A stretch of DNA of 47,583 bases from positions 1 to 47,583 of IMG/VR virus record IMGVR_UViG_3300042982_000075; one strand, given 5' to 3'. The position numbers and the translations under genes were made by a program. Positions 3,337 through 43,260 of this stretch are shown here, piece after piece. This DNA is from a virus. How positions within the stretch are numbered: position 1 is the stretch's first letter; each line of letters begins with the position of its first letter. The notes below the pieces were generated by a model. That model saw nothing but the letters and a program-made list of their open reading frames with translations. It was not told the origin of the DNA and made no database searches.

Positions 3337-3810
3337 TCATTCGTAGCGCGTGCTGTACCGCTGCCGCAGTTCGGGCCAGTAGCGGCGCAGGGTAGCCACG
3401 CTCACCGGATGGCCAGGGCGACGGCCGCTGACGCCGCGGTCATACAGGAACTCGGCGAGGCTCCGCGGATCGGGTTCCCGGCCGTGGACGTCGATGAAGT
3501 CGACGAGGCCTTCGAGGTAGATGTCGACCGTGCGGGTTCTTGACGGCGAGGAAACCGCCCTTGGCAGCGTCTCGCCTGCCGTTGGAGGGACCGGGGCGGG
3601 GATTGGCGCCATCCAGCGCAGGTACTCGACGCGCGCCAGGGCGGCAGCCCGGGCCTCGCGCATCTCCTGACTCCCGTTGGCTGCCGTGACGTCGGCTGCG
3701 AGGACGCGGGTGACGTACTCATCCACGCTCAGGCTGACTGCGGAAGCTGCCTGCGCGATGTCCTGGGTGAGCTGCTGCGGGAGTTGGATGCTGATGGTGG
3801 TCGTATCCAT
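3337..3810 (-). CDS. Ribbon-helix-helix DNA-binding protein
   Basis: A 157-aa protein is encoded on the strand opposite to all other structural genes. Residues 1-42 (MDTTTISIQLPQQLTQDI then SLSVDEYVTRVLAADV) match the beta-strand plus two-helix ribbon-helix-helix fold of Arc/MetJ regulators. The C-terminal part (LVDFIDVHGREPDPRSLAEF ... VATLRRYWPELRQRY) looks like an accessory helical DNA-binding or oligomerisation domain. No RBS precedes ATG 3810. TACCCT, a possible -10, lies exactly 6 bases upstream, which suggests a leaderless mRNA. The divergent spacer holds the TTGT-N14-ACAA element, its most likely operator (inference). Confidence 0.72.
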   Translation of the reverse strand: MDTTTISIQLPQQLTQDIAQAASAVSLSVDEYVTRVLAADVTAANGSQEMREARAAALARVEYLRWMAPIPAPVPPTAGETLPRAVSSPSRTRTVDIYLEGLVDFIDVHGREPDPRSLAEFLYDRGVSGRRPGHPVSVATLRRYWPELRQRYSTRYE

Positions 3811-3842
3811 GGCGGGAGGGTAGCGGGGCCACCCCGAGCCGC

Positions 3843-3882
3843 TTGTGAGACGTGTTGTCAACAAGCGCCCTACGATAGAACC
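3843..3882 (+). promoter_or_regulatory. Divergent leaderless promoter/operator, copy A
   Basis: TTGT (3843-3846), 14 bases, ACAA (3861-3864), 6 bases, TACGAT (3871-3876), then 6 bases to GTG 3883. The same arrangement with identical internal spacing occurs at 15064-15104; 23 of 34 positions match, including TGTCAACAA in full. TACNAT fits the -10 consensus TANNNT, and the 6-7 base distance to GTG implies transcription starting at the start codon. On the minus strand the TTGT half-site lies near the -35 of the RHH gene. Confidence 0.6.
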
Positions 3883-4176
3883 GTGATCGGCTTCACGACG
3901 CTGCTCCTCGCCGCCCTCTCGGTCGCACGCCTCACCAGGCTCGCCACCGAAGACCAAGTGCTGGCCGGGCCCCGTGGCGCGCTGATCCGGCGCCTGGGCG
4001 TCGACCACCCGCTCTCCTACCTCGTCACCTGCTCCTGGTGCACCTCGGTGTGGATCAGCGCAGCCGTCGCCCCCGCCGCCTACTGGGCCGGTGACACCGC
4101 GTGGTTCCAGGTCCCGGCCATCGCCCTGAGCGCCTCGTACGTAGCCGGGTGGCTCTCCCAGTTCGGAGGCGAGTAG
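3883..4176 (+). CDS. DUF1360 family membrane protein
   Basis: This 97-aa protein has an N-terminal hydrophobic helix (MIGFTTLLLAALSVARL), the family signature SYLVTCSWCTSVWISA with its paired cysteines, and a second hydrophobic stretch near the C-terminus. DUF1360 proteins occur in phages and Gram-positive bacteria without an assigned role. The GTG 3883 start is chosen because it lies 6 bases after the TACGAT element and no RBS exists upstream, so the message is probably leaderless. The stop overlaps the portal start by one base (TAGTG). A membrane protein between terminase and portal is unusual but recurrent in actinophages. Confidence 0.75.
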   Translation: MIGFTTLLLAALSVARLTRLATEDQVLAGPRGALIRRLGVDHPLSYLVTCSWCTSVWISAAVAPAAYWAGDTAWFQVPAIALSASYVAGWLSQFGGE

Positions 4177-5906
4177 TGGCCCCATCCCTCCGCAAGAAGC
4201 CCAAGCCCGCACCGCCACCGAAGGCCGGCCGGTCCCTCGTCGCCTCCGCGGCCCGCTTCGACATGGGCGGCGGCCAGACCTGGAAGACATTCATCGCAGG
4301 CGACACCGGGTGGCAGGAAGAGGCCTGGCGCCAGTACGACATCAACGGCGAACTCCGCTACGCCACCAACTGGGTCGGCAACGCCGTCTCCATGGCGACC
4401 CTGTACGCGGCCGACGTCGACCCGGACACCGGCCGCCCAGCCGGGCCGACCGAGAACGCGCGGGTCCAGGAGATCACGGAGAGCATCCTCGGTGGCCCGG
4501 TGCAGCGCGCCCAGGCGCAGAAGACCATCGCCATCAACCTGTCGGTTCCCGGGGAAGTGTTCCTCCTGGTGCGCTCCGGGGACCAGGGCGCACCGGACCG
4601 GTGGCTGGTGCTGTCCACCTCGGAGATCAAGGGCGGCGTGGGTGGGGTTGAGTACTGCGACCCGGAGACAGGGAAGGACGTCAAGCTCACGGCGGACGAT
4701 CTGCTGATCCGGATCTGGACTCGGCATCCGAGGCTTCACCGGGCCGCTGACTCGCCGGTACGGGCGCTCCTGCCGACGCTGCGGGAGATCGAACGGTCGT
4801 CGCAGAACATCGCCGCCCGCCTCGACAGCCGCTTGGCCAGCGCGGGCCTGCTGCCGCTCCCGGCCGGGATCGACTTCCCCAGGGGCGACGACGACCCGCC
4901 CGGCCTTGAGGGCTTCATGCAGATGATCGCCCGCGCCATGTCCGCGTCCATCCGTGAACCCGGGTCAGCGGCCGCTCAGGTCCCGATCATGTTCGAGGTC
5001 CCCGACGAGTTCGTGGACCGCCTCGGCGTCATCAGCTTCGAGTCCCCACTGTCCTCCGAAATCCTGGACCTGCGGGAGAAGGCCATCGGCCGGTTCGCGA
5101 CCGGCATGGATCTCCCCCCGGAGATCTTGAAGGGCCTCGGCGACTCGACGCACTGGAATGCGTTCATCGTCAAGGAGGAGACCTACCGGACGCACCTGGC
5201 ACCGCTGCTGGACCAGATCGCCGACGCTCTCACCCAGGCGTATCTCCTGCCCGCCCTCGAAGCAGCAGGCGTCCCGGACCCGGGATCGTTCATGCTCGCG
5301 TTCGACCCGACCGACCTGGTGGTGCAGCCGGACCGGCTCGATGACCTGCTGCGCCTGTACGACCTCGGCCTGATCTCCGCCGAGGCAATCCGCCTGGCCG
5401 CCGGGATCACGGACGACGAGCAGCCCACCGACGACGAGGCGAAGCGGCGCCTGGCGGAGCGGCTGGTGACGGGCGCTCCGACCCTGCTCGAGGATCCGGT
5501 GCTCGCCGAGATCCTGGGCCTGGCCCCGGTGCAGGTGCAGGCGGCGCAGCCCGCCGTCGAGGCCCCGGCCGAACAGCCGGCCGCGGTCACCGCCTCCGGC
5601 GCGCAGCAGCCCATCGAGCTGCTCGCCGCGGACATCGCCGTCCTCCACGCACTCGCCAAGGCCGGCGGCCGCCTGCTGAACAGTCACAGCATGCGGGGCC
5701 GGTACGCGGACACTCCGAAGCACGAGATCCACACGCAGGTCGCGATCGAACCGGATCGGGTCCCGTCGCTGCTTGACGGCGCTTTCGAGTTCTGCGGCGA
5801 CCTCGCTGATGCACACCAGCTCGGCCGGTACGTGGCTGGGCTGTTGGAGTCCGGCGCTGTGCACGACCGGGTCCTGCTCGCGGCGTGGATGGCTGACCAT
5901 GGCTGA
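4176..5906 (+). CDS. Portal protein
   Basis: A 576-aa protein follows the terminase and DUF1360 genes. GTG 4176 is preceded by GGAGG at 4166-4170. The central region carries typical portal features: GELRYATNWVGNAVS near the N-terminus, RHPRLHRAADSPVRALLPTL mid-protein, and the crown/stem segment EKAIGRFATGMDLPPEIL with GDSTHWNAFIVKEETYR. The last ~100 residues (from SGAQQPIELLAADI onward) extend beyond the usual portal core. The protein forms the dodecameric DNA channel at the capsid vertex. The downstream MuF-like gene overlaps it by 8 bases, consistent with coupled translation. Confidence 0.9.
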   Translation: MAPSLRKKPKPAPPPKAGRSLVASAARFDMGGGQTWKTFIAGDTGWQEEAWRQYDINGELRYATNWVGNAVSMATLYAADVDPDTGRPAGPTENARVQEITESILGGPVQRAQAQKTIAINLSVPGEVFLLVRSGDQGAPDRWLVLSTSEIKGGVGGVEYCDPETGKDVKLTADDLLIRIWTRHPRLHRAADSPVRALLPTLREIERSSQNIAARLDSRLASAGLLPLPAGIDFPRGDDDPPGLEGFMQMIARAMSASIREPGSAAAQVPIMFEVPDEFVDRLGVISFESPLSSEILDLREKAIGRFATGMDLPPEILKGLGDSTHWNAFIVKEETYRTHLAPLLDQIADALTQAYLLPALEAAGVPDPGSFMLAFDPTDLVVQPDRLDDLLRLYDLGLISAEAIRLAAGITDDEQPTDDEAKRRLAERLVTGAPTLLEDPVLAEILGLAPVQVQAAQPAVEAPAEQPAAVTASGAQQPIELLAADIAVLHALAKAGGRLLNSHSMRGRYADTPKHEIHTQVAIEPDRVPSLLDGAFEFCGDLADAHQLGRYVAGLLESGAVHDRVLLAAWMADHG

Positions 5907-15048: not shown

Positions 15049-15063
15049 GGACCGCTCCAGCGG

Positions 15064-15104
15064 TTGTTAGATCGAGTGTCAACAACACCCGTACCATGGG
15101 TGAC
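15064..15104 (+). promoter_or_regulatory. Leaderless promoter/operator, copy B
   Basis: TTGT (15064-15067), 14 bases, ACAA (15082-15085), 6 bases, TACCAT (15092-15097), then 7 bases to GTG 15105. The spacing equals copy A at 3843-3882. A GC stem ACCGC-TCCA-GCGGT at 15051-15064 just upstream may end the preceding transcript. The element would give the tape measure gene its own regulated promoter. Confidence 0.58.
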
Positions 15105-17294
15105 GTGGCATCCGATGGCAGAGCCTTCGTCGAAGTCGTCGCCGACACCTCCGGCACCGAACGACAGATGCAGCGCGACATGGAACAGGCCCTCAGCGCC
15201 GTCCAAGCCGCCCTGCCACCCATCGACGTCCAAGCCGCCCTCGACTCCACCGCCGGCCGCCAGGTCGTCTCCGAGATGGAACGCGTCGTCCGCGAAGCAC
15301 AGGCCGCGCTGCCCGACGTACAGGTCCAGGTCGACACCAGTCAGGCCACCGCGCAGATCGAGCAGTTCACCCGGGACGCGAACGGCCGGCTGCGGGACGC
15401 CCGGGGCCGGTTCGTGTCCTCGTCCCGCGCCCTGGGTGATGCCCTGGGCGACGGGGTGGGGGGCGGTTCCGACCGGGCGTCGGGCATGCTGCAGCGCCTG
15501 ATCGGCTCGCTCGGTGGTGTCACGTCCGGCCTCAGCGGCGTTGCCGCGGCCGCACCGCAGGCATCGGGGGCGCTGATCGCGGTGGCGGCTTCGGTCGGCG
15601 CGACCACCGCCGCGACGCTCGGCCTGGGCACGGCGTTCGCTGGGCTCGGCGTGGCCGCCCTGAAAGACACCCCGGCGGTCGAGGCGGCGTTCACCAGCCT
15701 CGGCCAGACCATCAAGGCCGTCATGCAGGGCGCGGCCGAGCCCCTGGAGGGCCCGCTCCTCGACGCCCTCCACGACGTACAGGACCTGGCCGTCGACCTC
15801 GGTCCGATCCTGCAGGAGATGTTCGCCGCCAGCGAGCCGTTCCTCAAAGCCCTCATCAGCGGAGTTGAGGCGTTCGCCCGTAACGCCCTCGGCGGCTTCA
15901 ACACGGCACTCCAGACCGCTGGCCCCCTGGCGGACAGCCTGAACACGATCCTCGGCGAGCTCGGCCAGGCCCTGGGCGACACCGTGGAAGCCCTCGCGCA
16001 GGACCCCGAAGGTACTGCCCTGGCCCTGGAAGAGATCATCCACTCGGCGGTGATCCTGCTGCCGACGCTGGGGAACCTGGCATCCGCGATCACGTCCCTT
16101 GCCGGTCCTGTCCTGGCCAGCCTGAACGGCGGCCTGATGGTCACCGCCACCGCGCTGGACGAGTTCGCGTCCATCGTCGAGTCCGTGGGTGACCTCCTGC
16201 GCGGCGACGCCTCTGAGGCCGCCGACGAATGGACTGGCAAAGCCCAGCGGCGGCTGGTGGACCGCACGAAGGAATCCACCGACGCCACGGACAGTTTCTC
16301 CTCGGCGCTGGACAACGCGCTGAAGAGCCTCAAGGACACCTCCGACACCACCACCGAAGCATCCACGGTCTCCAGCATCTACGCGTCGCAGGTCGCCTAC
16401 GTCAACACGAAACTGGCGCAGCAGAAAGCCGACGCCGACGGACTGCGGCAGTCCATTTTCGCCCTGACCGCCGAGACCCGCAGCGCCCTGGATGCCGAGT
16501 CGGCGTACGAGTCCGCAGTCGACAGCGTCTCGAAGGTCCTGAAGGACAACGGGGCTGTGCTCCGCATGCGCAACGGCGAGCTGGACCTCGGCTCGGAGAA
16601 GAGCCGGACGGCGTACGACGCCCTGTCACAGCTGGCCCAGCAGACCGAGGACTGGTCGGCGAAGGTGCTGGAGTCCACCGGGTCGGTCACCCAGTCCAAC
16701 GCGGTCCTCGACCAGGGCCGACGCAAGCTGATCGACCAGGCCGACGCGCTGGGCCTGACCAAGGCGCAGGCGAAAGCCCTCGCGGACCAGCTGATCGCCA
16801 CCCCCGACAAGGTCATCTCCGTGAAGGGCGACCTCGCGGACCTCAAAGCGAAGCTGGCGGATGCCGAGCAGCGCCTGCGGAACGCCCGCGGGTCGAAGCG
16901 GGTCGACATCCAGGGCGACATCGCCAACCTGAAACGGAAGATCTCGCAGGCCCGCGCGGAACTCCAGTCCCTCAACAACGTCAAGATCCTCATCAACGCG
17001 AACATTGCGCCTGCCGGACGCCCGTCCGCTGCATTCGCCGAAGGCGGCATCGTCCGCAGCGCAGTGCACGCCCTGGTCGGCGAGGCCGGCCCCGAGGTGG
17101 TGATCCCGCTGACCAAACCGGACCGCGCGCGGGAGCTCGCCGAAAAGTCCGGGCTGACCGGCCTCCTCGGCCAGCAGGCCCCCACCCCCGTGGTCAACAA
17201 CTACATCACCCTCGACGGCCAGGAACTCCGGCACGTGGCCCGGCAGGAGATCGCCGACGACCAGCGCCGTCGCGCCCAGGGAATCCGGAGGTAA
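15096..17294 (+). CDS. Tape measure protein
   Basis: A 732-aa protein, the longest in the genome, that sets tail length. Repetitive helical segments with Gln/Ala-rich content (MQRDMEQALSAVQAALPP) precede an Ala/Gly hydrophobic zone (residues ~145-200) and long coiled-coil stretches (KLADAEQRLRNARGSK). The C-terminal FAEGGIVRSAVHALVGEAGP followed by EVVIPL is the classic actinophage tape-measure ending. ATG 15096 lacks an RBS and lies in the putative -10. If the message is leaderless the true start is GTG 15105 (MASDGRAF), so the N-terminus is uncertain by 3 codons. Confidence 0.9.
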   Translation: MGDVASDGRAFVEVVADTSGTERQMQRDMEQALSAVQAALPPIDVQAALDSTAGRQVVSEMERVVREAQAALPDVQVQVDTSQATAQIEQFTRDANGRLRDARGRFVSSSRALGDALGDGVGGGSDRASGMLQRLIGSLGGVTSGLSGVAAAAPQASGALIAVAASVGATTAATLGLGTAFAGLGVAALKDTPAVEAAFTSLGQTIKAVMQGAAEPLEGPLLDALHDVQDLAVDLGPILQEMFAASEPFLKALISGVEAFARNALGGFNTALQTAGPLADSLNTILGELGQALGDTVEALAQDPEGTALALEEIIHSAVILLPTLGNLASAITSLAGPVLASLNGGLMVTATALDEFASIVESVGDLLRGDASEAADEWTGKAQRRLVDRTKESTDATDSFSSALDNALKSLKDTSDTTTEASTVSSIYASQVAYVNTKLAQQKADADGLRQSIFALTAETRSALDAESAYESAVDSVSKVLKDNGAVLRMRNGELDLGSEKSRTAYDALSQLAQQTEDWSAKVLESTGSVTQSNAVLDQGRRKLIDQADALGLTKAQAKALADQLIATPDKVISVKGDLADLKAKLADAEQRLRNARGSKRVDIQGDIANLKRKISQARAELQSLNNVKILINANIAPAGRPSAAFAEGGIVRSAVHALVGEAGPEVVIPLTKPDRARELAEKSGLTGLLGQQAPTPVVNNYITLDGQELRHVARQEIADDQRRRAQGIRR

Positions 17295-24855: not shown

Positions 24856-25389
24856 TCAGCGGATCCGCAGAGAGTGCAGCATCAGCAACGCCGCCACCGC
24901 GTTCGCACTCCGCACCTCTCCCCGAGCCACCAGCTCAGGCACCCGCGACAACGCCACCCACTCCCGCCGCTCGGACTCGAACGCATCCTCCGGATCACCA
25001 ACGTGCTCGGCGCTCTCCGTCCAGTACACATGGTGCATCGCATCCGCCAGACCATTCGACGGTTCCACAGTGAGCAGGTGCCGGAGCGGTCCCGGCCGCC
25101 ACCCGGTCTCCTCGAGCATCTCCCGCGCGGCCGCTTCCTCCAGGAGCTCGCCGTCCTCGACGACTCCGGCCGCCAGCTCCCAGCCCCAGCTGTCGGTGAT
25201 GAACCGGTGGCGCCACAGCAGGAGCACTTCGTCTTGTTCGTTGACGGCCGTGGCCAGGGCGACCGGGCGCTGCCGGATCAGGTAGTGGTCCAGGTGCCGG
25301 CCGTCAGGGAGCTCGACGTCTGCGAGGTTCACCCGCAGCCACGGGTTCTCATACACCGTGCGCTCGCCGAGGTTCTTCCACACCGACAT
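24856..25389 (-). CDS. Nudix hydrolase
   Basis: A 177-aa pyrophosphohydrolase. The Nudix box runs from G75 to W97 (GVVEDGE ... REMLEETGW) and fits GX5EX7REUXEEXGU in every position. Upstream WGWELAAG is typical of the ADP-sugar or NAD-related subfamilies, although substrate cannot be read from sequence. Streptomyces chromosomes carry many pairs of such a Nudix gene with an XRE-TPR regulator, and the same pair occurs here (59 bases after the regulator). It is probably host-derived cargo expressed in the lysogen. Confidence 0.9.
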   Translation of the reverse strand: MSVWKNLGERTVYENPWLRVNLADVELPDGRHLDHYLIRQRPVALATAVNEQDEVLLLWRHRFITDSWGWELAAGVVEDGELLEEAAAREMLEETGWRPGPLRHLLTVEPSNGLADAMHHVYWTESAEHVGDPEDAFESERREWVALSRVPELVARGEVRSANAVAALLMLHSLRIR

Positions 25390-28509: not shown

Positions 28510-28558
28510 GCGCAACACACACCCCTAACAGAACTTTGCGCCAGACAAGGTCTGTTAG
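28510..28558. other. Candidate attP site
   Basis: Just upstream of the serine integrase lies a perfect inverted repeat CTAACAGA (28525-28532) / TCTGTTAG (28551-28558), centred on CC at 28541-28542. A second pair, GCGCAA (28510-28515) / TTGCGC (28536-28541), overlaps it. Large serine integrases use ~50-bp partly palindromic attP sites with a non-palindromic central dinucleotide beside their own gene, so this is the best candidate. The crossover base is inferred. Confidence 0.5.
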
Positions 28559-28584: not shown

Positions 28585-30024
28585 ATGCCCATCGCACCGG
28601 AGTACCTGCACCTCGCCTACACCGGACCCATGACGGCGATCCTCTACGGCCGGGCCTCACGCGACCCCAAGAAGCGCGGACGCAGCGTCAACGACCAGCT
28701 CTACGAAAGCCGCGAACTCTGCGAGACCCACGGCTGGCCCATCGTGGACACCTTCCGCGACATCGACCGCTCCGCGAGCCGGCATGCGAAGAAGACCCGT
28801 GACGACTTCGAAGCCATGGTCGAAGCCATCAACGCCGGGAAGTGCCGCATCGTCGTCGCGTGGGAGGCCTCCCGCTACTACCGCGACCTCGAGATCTACA
28901 TCAGGCTCCGCAATGTCTGCGCCCAGAACAACGTCCTGCTCTGCTACAACGGCACCGTCTACGACCTGTCCAAGCGCGCGGACCGCAAAGCCACCGCCCA
29001 AGACGCCCTCCAGGCCGAAGACGAAGCCGAAGGCATCCGCGACCGCGTCCTGCGCACCGTCCGCCTCAACGCCGAACGCGGCAAACCCCACGGCCGGATC
29101 CTCTACGGCTACACCCGCCGCTACGACCCCGACACCGGCGACCTCATCGACCAGGTCCCCCACCCCGAACACGCCCCCATCGTCCGCGACATCTTCAAGA
29201 TGCGCGCCGAGGGCAAGGCCGGGAACTTCATCGCCAAGCACCTGAACGAGCGCGGCATCAAGACTCTGCACGGCCACGCCTGGACGCCGATCGCCGTCTC
29301 GAACCTGCTCCGCAACCCTGGCTACATCGGCCGGCGGATCCATCAGGGGCAGGAGATCGGTGACGCCACGTGGGATCCACTGATCGACTCCACCACGTGG
29401 AACACCGTCCAGGCGCTGCTGGCGGACTCGAGGTGGAAGGGCGAGCGACCGACCAGCGTCCGGCATCTGCTGACCGGGATAGCCCTGTGCGGCACGTGCG
29501 AGACGCCGCTGCGGCTGACGAAGAACCGCAACCGGTACTTCGCGTACTCGTGCCCCGGCCAGTACTGCGTGGCGATCCAGGAGCAGCTGCTGGACGCGTA
29601 CGTGGAGGAGTGGCTGCTGGCCCGGCTGGCTCGGCCGGATGCCGCCGAGGTTTTCCTTCCGCCGGACACCGGCGATGCGGTCACCGCGGCCGTGGCCGAG
29701 CAGGAAAAGCTGGAGGCGCGCCTTCAGGAGGCCCGCGATGCGGCCGGGGACGGGACGCTGTCCATCAAGTCGTTGGCGGCGCTGGAGGCCAAGCTCCTGC
29801 CGCAGATCGAGGCCGCCAAGGCCAGGGCCCGGGAGTCGGTCCGTAACCCGCTGCTGCACGACCTGGTGACCGCAGACGACCACGAGCAGGCATGGGACCG
29901 TCTGGTGCTCGAGCAGCGCCGCACGGTGATCCGCGACATGGTGACGATCCGGGTCCACAAGGGGCGCCGGGGCGTGGGCCGAATCACCCCGGGCCGGGTC
30001 ACCATCGACCCCCCGCAAGGCTAG
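28585..30024 (+). CDS. int: Large serine integrase
   Basis: A 479-aa site-specific recombinase. The catalytic domain begins ILYGRASRDPKK with nucleophile Ser25, followed by the motifs VVAWEASRYYRDL and ALQAEDEAEGIRDRVLRTVR. The recombinase domain (KPHGRILYGYTRRYDPDTGD ... VSNLLRNPGYIGRRI) follows. The zinc ribbon has Cys302, 305, 323 and 328, and a coiled coil covers ~350-405. No RBS precedes ATG 28585. TACGCT ends 6 bases before it, so a leaderless message is likely; ATG 28630 (Met16) would still retain the catalytic motif. Its stop overlaps that of the convergent gene (CTAG). Confidence 0.95.
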   Translation: MPIAPEYLHLAYTGPMTAILYGRASRDPKKRGRSVNDQLYESRELCETHGWPIVDTFRDIDRSASRHAKKTRDDFEAMVEAINAGKCRIVVAWEASRYYRDLEIYIRLRNVCAQNNVLLCYNGTVYDLSKRADRKATAQDALQAEDEAEGIRDRVLRTVRLNAERGKPHGRILYGYTRRYDPDTGDLIDQVPHPEHAPIVRDIFKMRAEGKAGNFIAKHLNERGIKTLHGHAWTPIAVSNLLRNPGYIGRRIHQGQEIGDATWDPLIDSTTWNTVQALLADSRWKGERPTSVRHLLTGIALCGTCETPLRLTKNRNRYFAYSCPGQYCVAIQEQLLDAYVEEWLLARLARPDAAEVFLPPDTGDAVTAAVAEQEKLEARLQEARDAAGDGTLSIKSLAALEAKLLPQIEAAKARARESVRNPLLHDLVTADDHEQAWDRLVLEQRRTVIRDMVTIRVHKGRRGVGRITPGRVTIDPPQG

Positions 30025-30569
30025 GAACGAGAGTCTGTCCCCGTCACAGTGAGCCCGCGAGCAGCGGCCCTGACCGGCAGCTGAACGACAGTCGCAACAG
30101 GCTCCGGAACGTTGTCCAAAGCGCCGGTCAGGGCCGCCATCGCACCGGCTTCGAAGGCCTGACAGATCAGCTCCCCGCGCTGCTCTTCGAACTCCTGGCG
30201 CATCGCCCGCCGATCGCTCTCCAGCTCAAGCCTGGCCTGCCGCCTGCTCTCGACCGCGTCACGCCGAACCCGTTCTCGTTCCATCTCCAGCACAGCGAGA
30301 GCGGCGCCGTATGCCTCGGCTTCCCGCCGGAGGTCGGCACGCTCGGAGCTGGTGTCGGCGATACCCCTGAGCAGGATGCGTACCCACAGGCCCATCAACG
30401 ACATGCACACCATCGTGGATCCGGCGACCGTCAGCTTCGCGGTGCTGGTCCACATGCTTCCTATGAGGGCAACCACGCCGACCAGGACACCGACGACAGC
30501 GATCGAGAACTTGGCCGAAGAGAACATGTCCACCCCGTCACGCTTCCGCTGCTTCTCCTCCGGGAGCAT
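30021..30569 (-). CDS. Membrane protein with coiled coil, downstream of repressor
   Basis: A 182-aa protein. Two hydrophobic segments (FSIAVVGVLVGVVALIGSMW and a second from MVCMSLMGLWVRILL) are followed by a long charged coiled coil (ERADLRREAEAYGAALAVLE, ESRRQARLELESDRRAMRQE) and a hydrophobic C-terminal part. ATG 30569 follows GGGAGCCGGG on its strand and overlaps the repressor end by 32 bases; Met at 30527 with GGGGTGG is an alternative. Co-expression with the repressor suggests a lysogen-expressed membrane function such as superinfection exclusion (inference). Confidence 0.72.
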   Translation of the reverse strand: MLPEEKQRKRDGVDMFSSAKFSIAVVGVLVGVVALIGSMWTSTAKLTVAGSTMVCMSLMGLWVRILLRGIADTSSERADLRREAEAYGAALAVLEMERERVRRDAVESRRQARLELESDRRAMRQEFEEQRGELICQAFEAGAMAALTGALDNVPEPVATVVQLPVRAAARGLTVTGTDSRS

Positions 30570-30993
30570 TGTCCCGGCTCCCTGCTTGGTGGCGTCGGAG
30601 CCTTTTGACCATGCTCTCGAAGAGAGCCACGTCCTCGGGGTCCCTGATCCCAAGATCCTCAGCTGCCTCACGGGGGGTAATAGGGCGCGAGCGTAGCGCG
30701 TTTCCAGACACGTGGGTGAGGGATTCCTCCGAAACGATGCCAGATCTGATCAGTAGCTCCCGCAGTGGGACGCGTAGGGCTTTGGCGAGAGGCTCGAAGG
30801 CGGTGGCGTCAGGCATGCGTTCAGCGGTGAGGAGGCGGCTGATCGTGGACAAGCTGAGCCCGGCGTCTCTGGCCAGGTTGGTCTTGCCGCCGCCGCGGGG
30901 GCTGTCGATGTCGTAGCCGGCGGCGCGGGCTGCGTCGGCGATGTATCGCGCGAAGCTCCGGAGCCGTGTCTCGTCTGCCTTGTTAGCGGTCAC
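30538..30993 (-). CDS. Immunity repressor candidate
   Basis: A 151-aa protein. FARYIADAARAAGYDID opens it, then the helix-turn-helix TNLARDAGLSLSTISRLLTA and EPLAKALRVPLRELLIRSGI. The C-terminal part (ITPREAAEDLGIRDPEDVAL) may mediate dimerisation; no LexA-type cleavage motif is evident. GTG 30993 has no RBS. TAACCT, with CGGACA 18 bases before it, ends 6 bases upstream, consistent with a leaderless transcript as known for lambda cI from PRM. Divergent transcription from the Cro-like gene across three or four operators supports the repressor role. Confidence 0.82.
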   Translation of the reverse strand: MTANKADETRLRSFARYIADAARAAGYDIDSPRGGGKTNLARDAGLSLSTISRLLTAERMPDATAFEPLAKALRVPLRELLIRSGIVSEESLTHVSGNALRSRPITPREAAEDLGIRDPEDVALFESMVKRLRRHQAGSRDNAPGGEAAEA

Positions 30994-31033
30994 GCAAGCA
31001 GGTTAGCCACCCGGCTAGCACATTGTCCGTTGC

Positions 31034-31047
31034 TTGTCAGCTGACAA
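31034..31047. promoter_or_regulatory. Immunity operator O1
   Basis: TTGTCAGCTGACAA is a perfect 14-bp palindrome. On the minus strand its CTGACA half can serve as -35 for the repressor, with TAGCCG 17 bases on, so binding would autoregulate the repressor. Confidence 0.8.
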
Positions 31048-31079
31048 AGGTCATGGTCAGGCCATGTTACGTCAGGTAC

Positions 31080-31093
31080 ATCTCAGCTGCCAG
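31080..31093. promoter_or_regulatory. Degenerate immunity operator O4
   Basis: This site matches 10 of 14 positions of O1, including the central TCAGCTG. It lies next to a possible leftward promoter (minus-strand TTCGAG, 17 bases, TATCGT), so it may fine-tune leftward transcription. The assignment is weaker than O1-O3. Confidence 0.4.
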
Positions 31094-31149
31094 CACGATA
31101 GAACACTCGTTCGGTAGCTCGAAGGCGAAAAATTAACACCGCTCCTTGC

Positions 31150-31163
31150 TTGCCAGCTGACAC
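31150..31163. promoter_or_regulatory. Immunity operator O2
   Basis: TTGCCAGCTGACAC differs from O1 at two positions. Its first six bases are also the -35 of the rightward early promoter, so repressor bound here would block that promoter directly. Confidence 0.75.
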
Positions 31164-31179
31164 GTAAGCCCATTAGGTT
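31150..31179 (+). promoter_or_regulatory. Rightward early promoter PR
   Basis: TTGCCA (31150-31155), an 18-base spacer and TAGGTT (31174-31179) fit the Streptomyces HrdB consensus TTGACN/TANNNT. The promoter faces the Cro-like gene at 31219 and the whole early operon. O2 covers its -35 and O3 lies just past its -10. Confidence 0.65.
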
Positions 31180-31181
31180 GT

Positions 31182-31195
31182 TTGTCAGTTGGCAA
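31182..31195. promoter_or_regulatory. Immunity operator O3
   Basis: TTGTCAGTTGGCAA matches 12 of 14 positions of O1. It sits over the expected transcription start of the rightward promoter, 19 bases after O2, about two helical turns, which would favour cooperative binding. Confidence 0.75.
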
Positions 31196-31218: not shown

Positions 31219-31437
31219 ATGGCTGCCCAGTACACCTTCTGCACCACCCGGCTCCTCGAAGTCGCACAGAAAGTCGGCGACACCACCGGATACGCCATCG
31301 CCCAGCGCGCCGGCATCTCCGGTTCCGTCGTCTCCCGCATCCTCAACGGCCGCCGCCGCCCATCACTGGAAACGGCGGTCACCCTGGCCCGCACCTACGG
31401 CGTCCAGGTCGACGACCTCATCCGGGAAGCGGCATGA
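31219..31437 (+). CDS. Cro-like regulator
   Basis: A 72-aa protein is essentially one helix-turn-helix domain: TGYAIAQRAGISGSVVSRIL, NGRRRPSLETAVTLARTYGV. It is the first gene of the rightward early operon and faces the repressor across the operators, the position of cro in lambdoid phages. A strong GGGAGGTG precedes ATG 31219. It probably binds the same operators with a different preference and promotes lytic growth. Confidence 0.83.
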   Translation: MAAQYTFCTTRLLEVAQKVGDTTGYAIAQRAGISGSVVSRILNGRRRPSLETAVTLARTYGVQVDDLIREAA

Positions 31438-32768: not shown

Positions 32769-33145
32769 TCAGCGCCCGCATCGACGCCTACGGCATGGCC
32801 GTCACCGTCGACCTCACCACCGCCATCGACCAGGTCCTCGACCTCGTCGCCACCGCGTACGAGGACGACCCCTCCACCATCGGCCAGCTCCTGATCGACC
32901 TCGCCCAGGCCAACACCGCAGCGGACCAGGCCGCCCACCGCGACATCCCCGACTGGATCGCCGACCACGCCAGCGCCCAGGCCGACAGCATCCGCGAGGA
33001 CCTCGCCGCCGCGCTGCCGTCCGAGCCGGTGACCGCGGACCTCAACGAGAACGACGCCTGGCAGCTCGCCGGGGAACTCACCACCGCCGCTGGCCGGACC
33101 TTCACCGCCCGCGCCCGGAACTGCCAGCGAGGTACTGCCGCATGA
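32765..33145 (+). CDS. Early protein of unknown function (126 aa)
   Basis: A helical protein (TAIDQVLDLVATAYEDDPST, IGQLLIDLAQANTAADQAAH) precedes the exonuclease gene and overlaps it by 4 bases. The C-terminal third (NENDAWQLAGELTTAAGRTF) suggests a small alpha/beta unit. No family is recognised. Proximity to the recombination genes makes a supporting role plausible. Confidence 0.64.
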   Translation: MISARIDAYGMAVTVDLTTAIDQVLDLVATAYEDDPSTIGQLLIDLAQANTAADQAAHRDIPDWIADHASAQADSIREDLAAALPSEPVTADLNENDAWQLAGELTTAAGRTFTARARNCQRGTAA

Positions 33146-43152: not shown

Positions 43153-43226
43153 GCCCGAGTAGCCCAACGGCAGAGGCCACCGCCTTAAAAGCGGACCAAG
43201 TGCGGGTTCGAATCCCGCCCCGGGCA
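43153..43226 (+). tRNA. tRNA with UAA anticodon on a short-variable-arm scaffold
   Basis: A 74-nt cloverleaf. Acceptor stem 43153-43159 pairs with 43219-43225 except one A-C mismatch, and the discriminator is A43226. The D arm has 3 pairs, the anticodon stem 4 (80-83 with 91-94), and the T arm GCGGG-TTCGAAT-CCCGC is perfect. The loop CTTAAAA gives anticodon UAA (43186-43188), which reads UUA leucine codons. Leucine tRNAs normally have a long variable arm; this one has about 6 bases, so its amino acid is uncertain. CCA is not encoded. Confidence 0.8.
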
Positions 43227-43260
43227 CGCCCCCCACCCCGACCGCACCGGAAGGACCGCC

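Follow-up and report, generated by a model that had tools for sequence, protein, structure and literature searches.

Operator-like elements at two leaderless-type late promoters of a temperate actinophage suggest late-gene targets for its lysogeny switch

A 47,583-nucleotide stretch of viral DNA (IMG/VR record IMGVR_UViG_3300042982_000075), hereafter the window, was found to carry one and the same sequence element directly upstream of two late genes with leaderless-type starts, namely the DUF1360 gene preceding the portal gene and the tape measure gene. The element is composed of words that recur in the operators of the immunity region of this phage, and we regard it as about an even chance (probability roughly 0.5) that operators for the lysogeny repressor or the Cro-like protein silence these two conserved leaderless late promoters.

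Two late promoters with a common upstream element

An exact-pattern scan of the window for TTGT-N14-ACAA-N6-TACNAT returned two matches, at 3843-3876 (site 1) and 15064-15097 (site 2), both on the plus strand, with no third copy in the window and none in the reversed control. A sequence-only reading had reported the motif at both places with the same internal spacing and 23 of 34 identical positions, and the recomputed count agreed. When the -10 hexamer was left out, 18 of 28 positions were identical (P = 1.4e-4), and TTGT-N14-ACAA, seen twice, was expected 0.01 times per window in order-2 Markov simulations. Among 435 pairs of upstream regions, the two sites gave the highest score (37.2 in base-weighted units, the runner-up reaching 27.0), which also exceeded the maximum of 30.1 obtained across 200 null sets. 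The shared element is real and statistically solid.

As to its anatomy, site 1 contains the dyad CGCTTGT-N14-ACAAGCG (3840-3867, plus strand), centred at -29.5 from GTG 3883 and at -43.5 from ATG 3810 of the divergent neighbour gene, while site 2 contains GTTGTT-N12-AACAAC (15063-15086, plus strand), centred at -30.5 from GTG 15105; in both, the centre lies 17.5 bp 5' of the -10 hexamer. The base outside TTGT is C.G at site 1 and G.C at site 2, and because it differs and yet pairs at both sites, it supports a real symmetric element, dyad arms of six or seven bases as such being not rare in such GC-rich DNA. The inner octamer TGTCAACA matches exactly between the sites.

The -10 hexamers, TACGAT for DUF1360/portal (3871-3876, plus strand) and TACCAT for the tape measure (15092-15097, plus strand), precede the respective GTG codons by 6 and 7 nt. 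GTG 3883 opens the gene for a DUF1360 membrane protein (3883-4176, plus strand; PF07098, E = 9.7e-6), which is followed by the portal gene (4176-5906, plus strand), assigned by alignment. GTG 15105 opens the tape measure gene (15105-17294, plus strand), the start of which was set by N-terminal alignment; since the homologues align to GTG 15105, the ATG at 15096, which overlaps the -10 hexamer, is not the start of this gene. No Shine-Dalgarno sequence was seen upstream of either GTG, and neither site has a -35 of the NTGACC/TTGACA type at a spacing of 16-19 bp, the hexamers 18 bp from the -10 (GAGACG at site 1 and TAGATC at site 2) being poor matches to TTGACA with 3 of 6 positions each. Judged by these features, both sites are probably leaderless late promoters, and transcription is predicted to start at or beside the two GTG codons.

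In actinobacterial hosts, TANNNT hexamers and leaderless starts are nothing unusual. In S. coelicolor, the -10 is TANNNT, approximately 21% of the primary starts are leaderless, and a -35 of the NTGACC/TTGACA type is common but not universal, being present at 58.6% of the starts (PMC4895711); likewise, leaderless genes carry TA-like signals about 12 bp upstream (PMC3160421). In the window as a whole, TACNAT occurs three times where order-2 simulations predict about 17, which suggests that -10-like words are avoided there.

Immunity-operator words at the late promoters

The window encodes a CI-type repressor (HTH_3) with a leaderless-type start (30538-30993, minus strand; phrog_3949 transcriptional repressor, E = 1.8e-22) and, divergently, a Cro-like HTH_3 protein (31219-31437, plus strand; Pfam HTH_3, E = 4.4e-11). 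The presence of this pair alongside a serine integrase indicates that the phage is temperate. The immunity operators are located within 30980-31195 and comprise the palindromes TTGTCAGCTGACAA at 31034, TTGCCAGCTGACAC at 31150 and TTGTCAGTTGGCAA at 31182, together with the weaker palindrome ATCTCAGCTGCCAG at 31080; a TTGTTAG word is found at 30980. Just 3' of this fourth palindrome, at 31096-31107, stands the 10-mer ACGATAGAAC, which site 1 carries unchanged across its -10 and start codon region (3872-3881).

Several further features of the window were recorded. The serine integrase gene (28585-30024) is of the leaderless type and is preceded by a 12-nt inverted repeat, CTAACAGAACTT/AAGGTCTGTTAG (28525-28558), a possible operator or attachment site. 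Within the minus-strand block between the tail genes and the integrase, the gene at 24856-25389 (minus strand) was matched to the PADLOC candidate defence family PDC-S07 (E = 2.3e-6), and a tRNA-Leu with anticodon taa lies at 43153-43227 (plus strand).

Counting both strands, TTGTNAG occurs six times in the window, against 4.0 ± 1.9 expected: at 3843, at 15064, and four times in 30980-31182, where the copies are spread over the intergenic region and the initial codons of the repressor gene. The regions holding these six copies make up 0.6% of the window. Among the gapped 7-mers drawn from both late promoters, TTGTNAG was the only common word enriched in other noncoding DNA. Each late site offers two half-sites on the plus strand, TTGTGAG (3843-3849) and TTGTCAA (3855-3861) at site 1, and TTGTTAG (15064-15070) and GTGTCAA (15076-15082) at site 2, the first of each pair fitting TTGTNAG; among matches to the immunity half-site matrix in the window, TTGTCAA of site 1 comes fourth. 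When all half-site pairs of the window were ranked by this matrix, which was built from the four immunity palindromes alone and applied in a comparison chosen after the immunity region had been seen, three immunity operators came first, 3843/3855 fourth and 15064/15076 fifth, followed by the fourth immunity operator. Since a random window would yield about 2.8 pairs that score as well as the weaker late site, this site is convincing only by its position.

The two sets of sites also differ. The immunity operators consist of abutting inverted half-sites (7-bp step), whereas the late sites present direct half-sites 12 bp apart or a dyad with N14, so that one protein would have to bind two arrangements. 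TTGTGAG and TTGTTAG of the late sites moreover lack a C found in every immunity half-site used, and in three relatives (G001, G002 and G011) the late promoters showed no link to the immunity operators. Nevertheless, because the late element is built from immunity-operator words, the lysogeny repressor is a likelier binder than the product of the neighbouring RHH-like gene described below.

In the mechanism that we favour, the TACNAT hexamers with a start codon at or beside +1 would constitute the promoters of the DUF1360/portal operon and of the tape measure gene, and the element spanning -40 to -19 would be an operator made of the CI/Cro immunity half-sites TTGTNAG and KTGTCAA. During lysogeny or early in infection, the repressor or the Cro-like protein would occupy these late operators, and the bound protein, overlapping the -35 and spacer regions, would block polymerase and shut both internal promoters. 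Upon induction, binding would be lost, and the promoters of the portal operon and the tape measure gene would be freed.

Conserved promoters and clade-specific elements in relatives

With the portal protein as query, 80 related IMG/VR loci were collected (best identity 52%), and the DUF1360 gene, which lies directly 5' of the portal gene, was examined in these loci and in phage records. TANNNT was found exactly 6-7 nt before the start in 56 of the 64 distinct DUF1360 genes (35 at 6 nt and 21 at 7 nt over all candidate starts), a count in which the start codon was allowed to vary within protein-family consistency and which therefore somewhat favours finding TANNNT. Of the 456 genes called in eight relatives, for comparison, 32 had TANNNT at this distance and one had it at a control distance. 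The arrangement stands at the annotated DUF1360 start in CRB2 and BatteryCK (cluster B mycobacteriophages) and in Rhodococcus phage Tonitrus. For the tape measure, homologues collected with an N-terminal profile carried TANNNT 6-7 nt before the start in 9 of 13 cases including the window (8 of 12 without it). The architecture of the late promoters is conserved across the phage family; the element upstream varies from clade to clade.

The window's own version of the element, which the sequence-only reading had proposed to seek in relatives, was absent from 48 related records (sets of 15 and 33); the bare dyad, stripped of the rest, occurred once in each of two records of the 15-record set. Across IMG/VR, the exact pattern was present in six records, five of 27-48% GC and one of 56% GC, none of them recognisably related, and a search for a GC-rich variant that included the -10 and the start codon returned 16 matches, none 5' of a plausible late gene. 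The record of 56% GC, an otherwise unrelated viral contig (L026), contains TTGT-N9-TGTCAACAA-N6-TACAAT in three copies, at 717, 2440 and 4805.

In place of the window's element, other clades carry their own. The arrangement ATCTACCYCTTG-N15-TANNNT is common to 25 distinct DUF1360 promoters; its TTG, 15 bp before the -10, is too close for a normal -35. In phiAsp2, G009 and G010, GAGATGYCC accompanies DUF1360 as well as several further leaderless genes, and in the latter two genomes it also adjoins the tape measure gene. This set, apparently a late sub-regulon without an RHH gene, resembles the window in combining a repeated element, TANNNT and a leaderless start at DUF1360 (and at the tape measure in G009 and G010), but differs in the sequence of the element, in lacking an RHH gene and in that the element is not matched to an immunity region.

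Further observations were made on these genomes. In each of the genomes of phiAsp2 (L295-L297), G009 and G010, several leaderless genes have an element of the GAGATGYCC type 18-22 bp ahead of TANNNT. In phiAsp2 (L295, 16250-16321) and the equivalent regions of G009 and G010, a minus-strand gene of 142-145 aa and the tape measure gene form a divergent leaderless-type pair 71-72 bp apart, and the phiAsp2 intergene holds the palindrome CCCTGACA-N6-TGTCAGGG. Canonical leaderless promoters, TTGACACTTCACAGTCA-N-TAAGGT/TAATGT, are repeated in phiAsp2 at 33033, 33734, 40302 and 56901, and their palindrome TTGACTGTGAAGTGTCAA recurs 5' of the DUF1360 gene of L244, with a near match at the corresponding place in L235.

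As for the earlier claims, that of two internal late promoters for leaderless messages is supported by the family-wide conservation, whereas that of one common element holds within this phage only. The accompanying statement that such an arrangement was not known from described phages was too strong, as relatives often have a leaderless DUF1360 promoter, and other actinophages, such as L5 and phiC31, are known to carry repressor sites beyond the immunity region. Literature searches on leaderless phage late promoters, DUF1360 and RHH late regulators returned nothing on point.

These comparisons bring in the first alternative, which we hold to be possible but tentative, that the element is a phage-specific late-activator box replacing -35 recognition in the manner of MotA, each clade having a box of its own. 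The clade elements do take the place of a canonical -35 at DUF1360, as in the 25 ATCTACCYCTTG promoters; GAGATGYCC recurs at several leaderless genes per genome; the dyads of the window are centred at -29.5 and -30.5; and a good TTGAC is missing at 16-19 bp. Against these points, these phages yielded no shared candidate for an activator, the window's element resembles immunity operators, and three of the four genomes scanned have a single copy of the ATCTACCYCTTG element.

The RHH-like neighbour gene

The 474-bp gene at 3337-3810 (minus strand) encodes a 157-aa protein with an RHH-like N-terminus (residues 3-45) and a C-terminal helical domain (residues 94-149). The RHH-like character was recognised by inspection together with weak profile matches, to NCBIfam VapB_Myco (E = 0.0019; 18.7 bits, cut-off 60) and Pfam CopG_antitoxin (E = 0.22; 12.8 bits, cut-off 28). 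An AlphaFold2 single-sequence model of low confidence (pLDDT 68) placed helices at 11-23 and 28-36 after a strand-like stretch, in the numbering of a 156-aa model from which the first Met is missing. With this low-confidence model, Foldseek returned weak matches to AtaR, NikA and Reg576, and PDB alignment gave generic HTH-like matches only (Z about 5). In a tblastn search of plasmids, the C-terminal part resembled the C-termini of Streptomyces plasmid DUF2637 proteins, while searches of phage and IMG/VR sequences yielded no homologues. The assignment as an RHH regulator in the sequence-only reading falls short of every curated profile cut-off.

This gene looks leaderless-type too, with a -10-like TACCCT (3818-3823, minus strand) in the order TACCCT-N6-ATG 3810, and it forms with DUF1360 a divergent leaderless-type pair across a 72-bp intergene. 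The gap between TerL and DUF1360 in the nearest relatives, about 80 bp (G001), 115 bp (L176) and about 270 bp (G002), is too short for a 474-bp gene, and unrelated antisense genes occupy the interval in TP1604, TurkishDelight and cluster B phages, the gene in cluster B mycobacteriophages being for a RuvC-like resolvase. Taken together, the short gaps and the unrelated genes suggest that 3337-3810 is one of several alternative insertions. Most likely, therefore, the RHH-like gene is an inserted neighbour whose own promoter adjoins the site 1 operator.

The second alternative, put forward by the sequence-only reading and considered unlikely here, is that the RHH-like protein recognises both copies of the dyad and regulates the late promoters as well as its own gene. 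The geometry would suit such a role, since the dyad is at -43.5 from the start of its own gene, a class II activator position, and at about -30 from the late starts, so that a logic like that of lambda PRM/PR, with self-activation and late repression, would be possible. The gene adjoins site 1 in a divergent pair, gene and element are both absent from the relatives checked, and the protein combines RHH-like with HTH-like domains. However, the domain assignment falls below the curated cut-offs, other phages fill the same interval with unrelated antisense genes, and relatives without the gene still carry clade-specific elements at the corresponding promoters. Because the element shares TTGTNAG with the immunity operators, the proposal, which had drawn on adjacency, is demoted. 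Thus, the promoter half of the earlier interpretation appears to be supported and generalised, and its RHH half to be replaced by a better candidate regulator, the lysogeny repressor.

Remaining explanations

More speculative still is a combined scheme, in which a clade-specific box read by a phage-encoded factor has replaced the host -35 at the leaderless portal operon and tape measure gene throughout a large family of actinobacterial siphophages, and in the present phage has merged with a lysogeny operator, a single sequence serving as activator box and repressor site.

It is rather improbable that the similarity reflects two strong host-type leaderless promoters plus chance. Although the -10 and its spacing from the start are general host features, as in S. 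coelicolor (PMC4895711), the identity outside the -10, the rank of the pair above all null sets and the dyad arms that pair with different bases argue against it. An action of the element in RNA, as a hairpin or processing site on read-through transcripts, is very improbable and was rejected because site 2 does not fold better than shuffled sequences (z = -0.4 and -0.2), even though site 1 does so somewhat (z = -1.9 on the plus and -3.4 on the minus strand), and a T run of the terminator type is missing. Promoters of the ECF type, with TGTCAACA as the -35, were rejected by reasoning only, as +1 would land inside genes.

Implications

If the favoured reading is true, it provides a concrete and testable wiring for the silencing of head and tail genes in a temperate actinophage, in that internal late promoters lying 16-27 kb from the lysogeny switch would themselves carry its operators. 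Of wider bearing is the comparison with relatives. The pre-portal gene appears to be leaderless-type in nearly all members of a large actinophage family, and the tape measure gene in most relatives that could be checked, the sequence 5' of the -10 being clade-specific. Recognition of leaderless late promoters also corrects start-codon annotation, as for ATG 15096, and points to compact late promoters and their trans-acting factors.

Comparison with known systems

The stoperators of L5 and other cluster A mycobacteriophages are repressor sites outside the immunity region that are numerous, asymmetric and mostly away from start-proximal promoters. The late sites resemble them as half-sites located outside the immunity region, in a single orientation relative to transcription, that would silence other operons in the lysogen; they share a recognition sequence with the immunity operators but not the half-site arrangement, and they differ from L5 in being two paired sites placed on promoters. 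In phiC31, the repressor binds conserved inverted repeats (CIRs) scattered over the genome, mainly in the early region. The present phage would likewise be a Streptomyces-type temperate phage with dispersed repressor operators, its sites being instead at the portal and tape measure promoters.

The late promoter P3 of GIL01 is repressed by LexA/gp7 and activated by gp6, which has a palindrome centred at -43.5 (PMC6182141). Common to both systems would be a late promoter with a palindrome overlapping the -35 and deciding between lysis and lysogeny, but in the window the centre is at about -30 from the late genes and at -43.5 only relative to the RHH-like gene, and no LexA-type gene was identified in this phage. 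The middle promoters of T4, which combine a MotA box centred at -30 with a sigma70 -10 (PMC2988021), match the window in joining a host-type -10 to a phage element near -30 in place of a -35; the element of the window differs in being a dyad that contains immunity-operator words.
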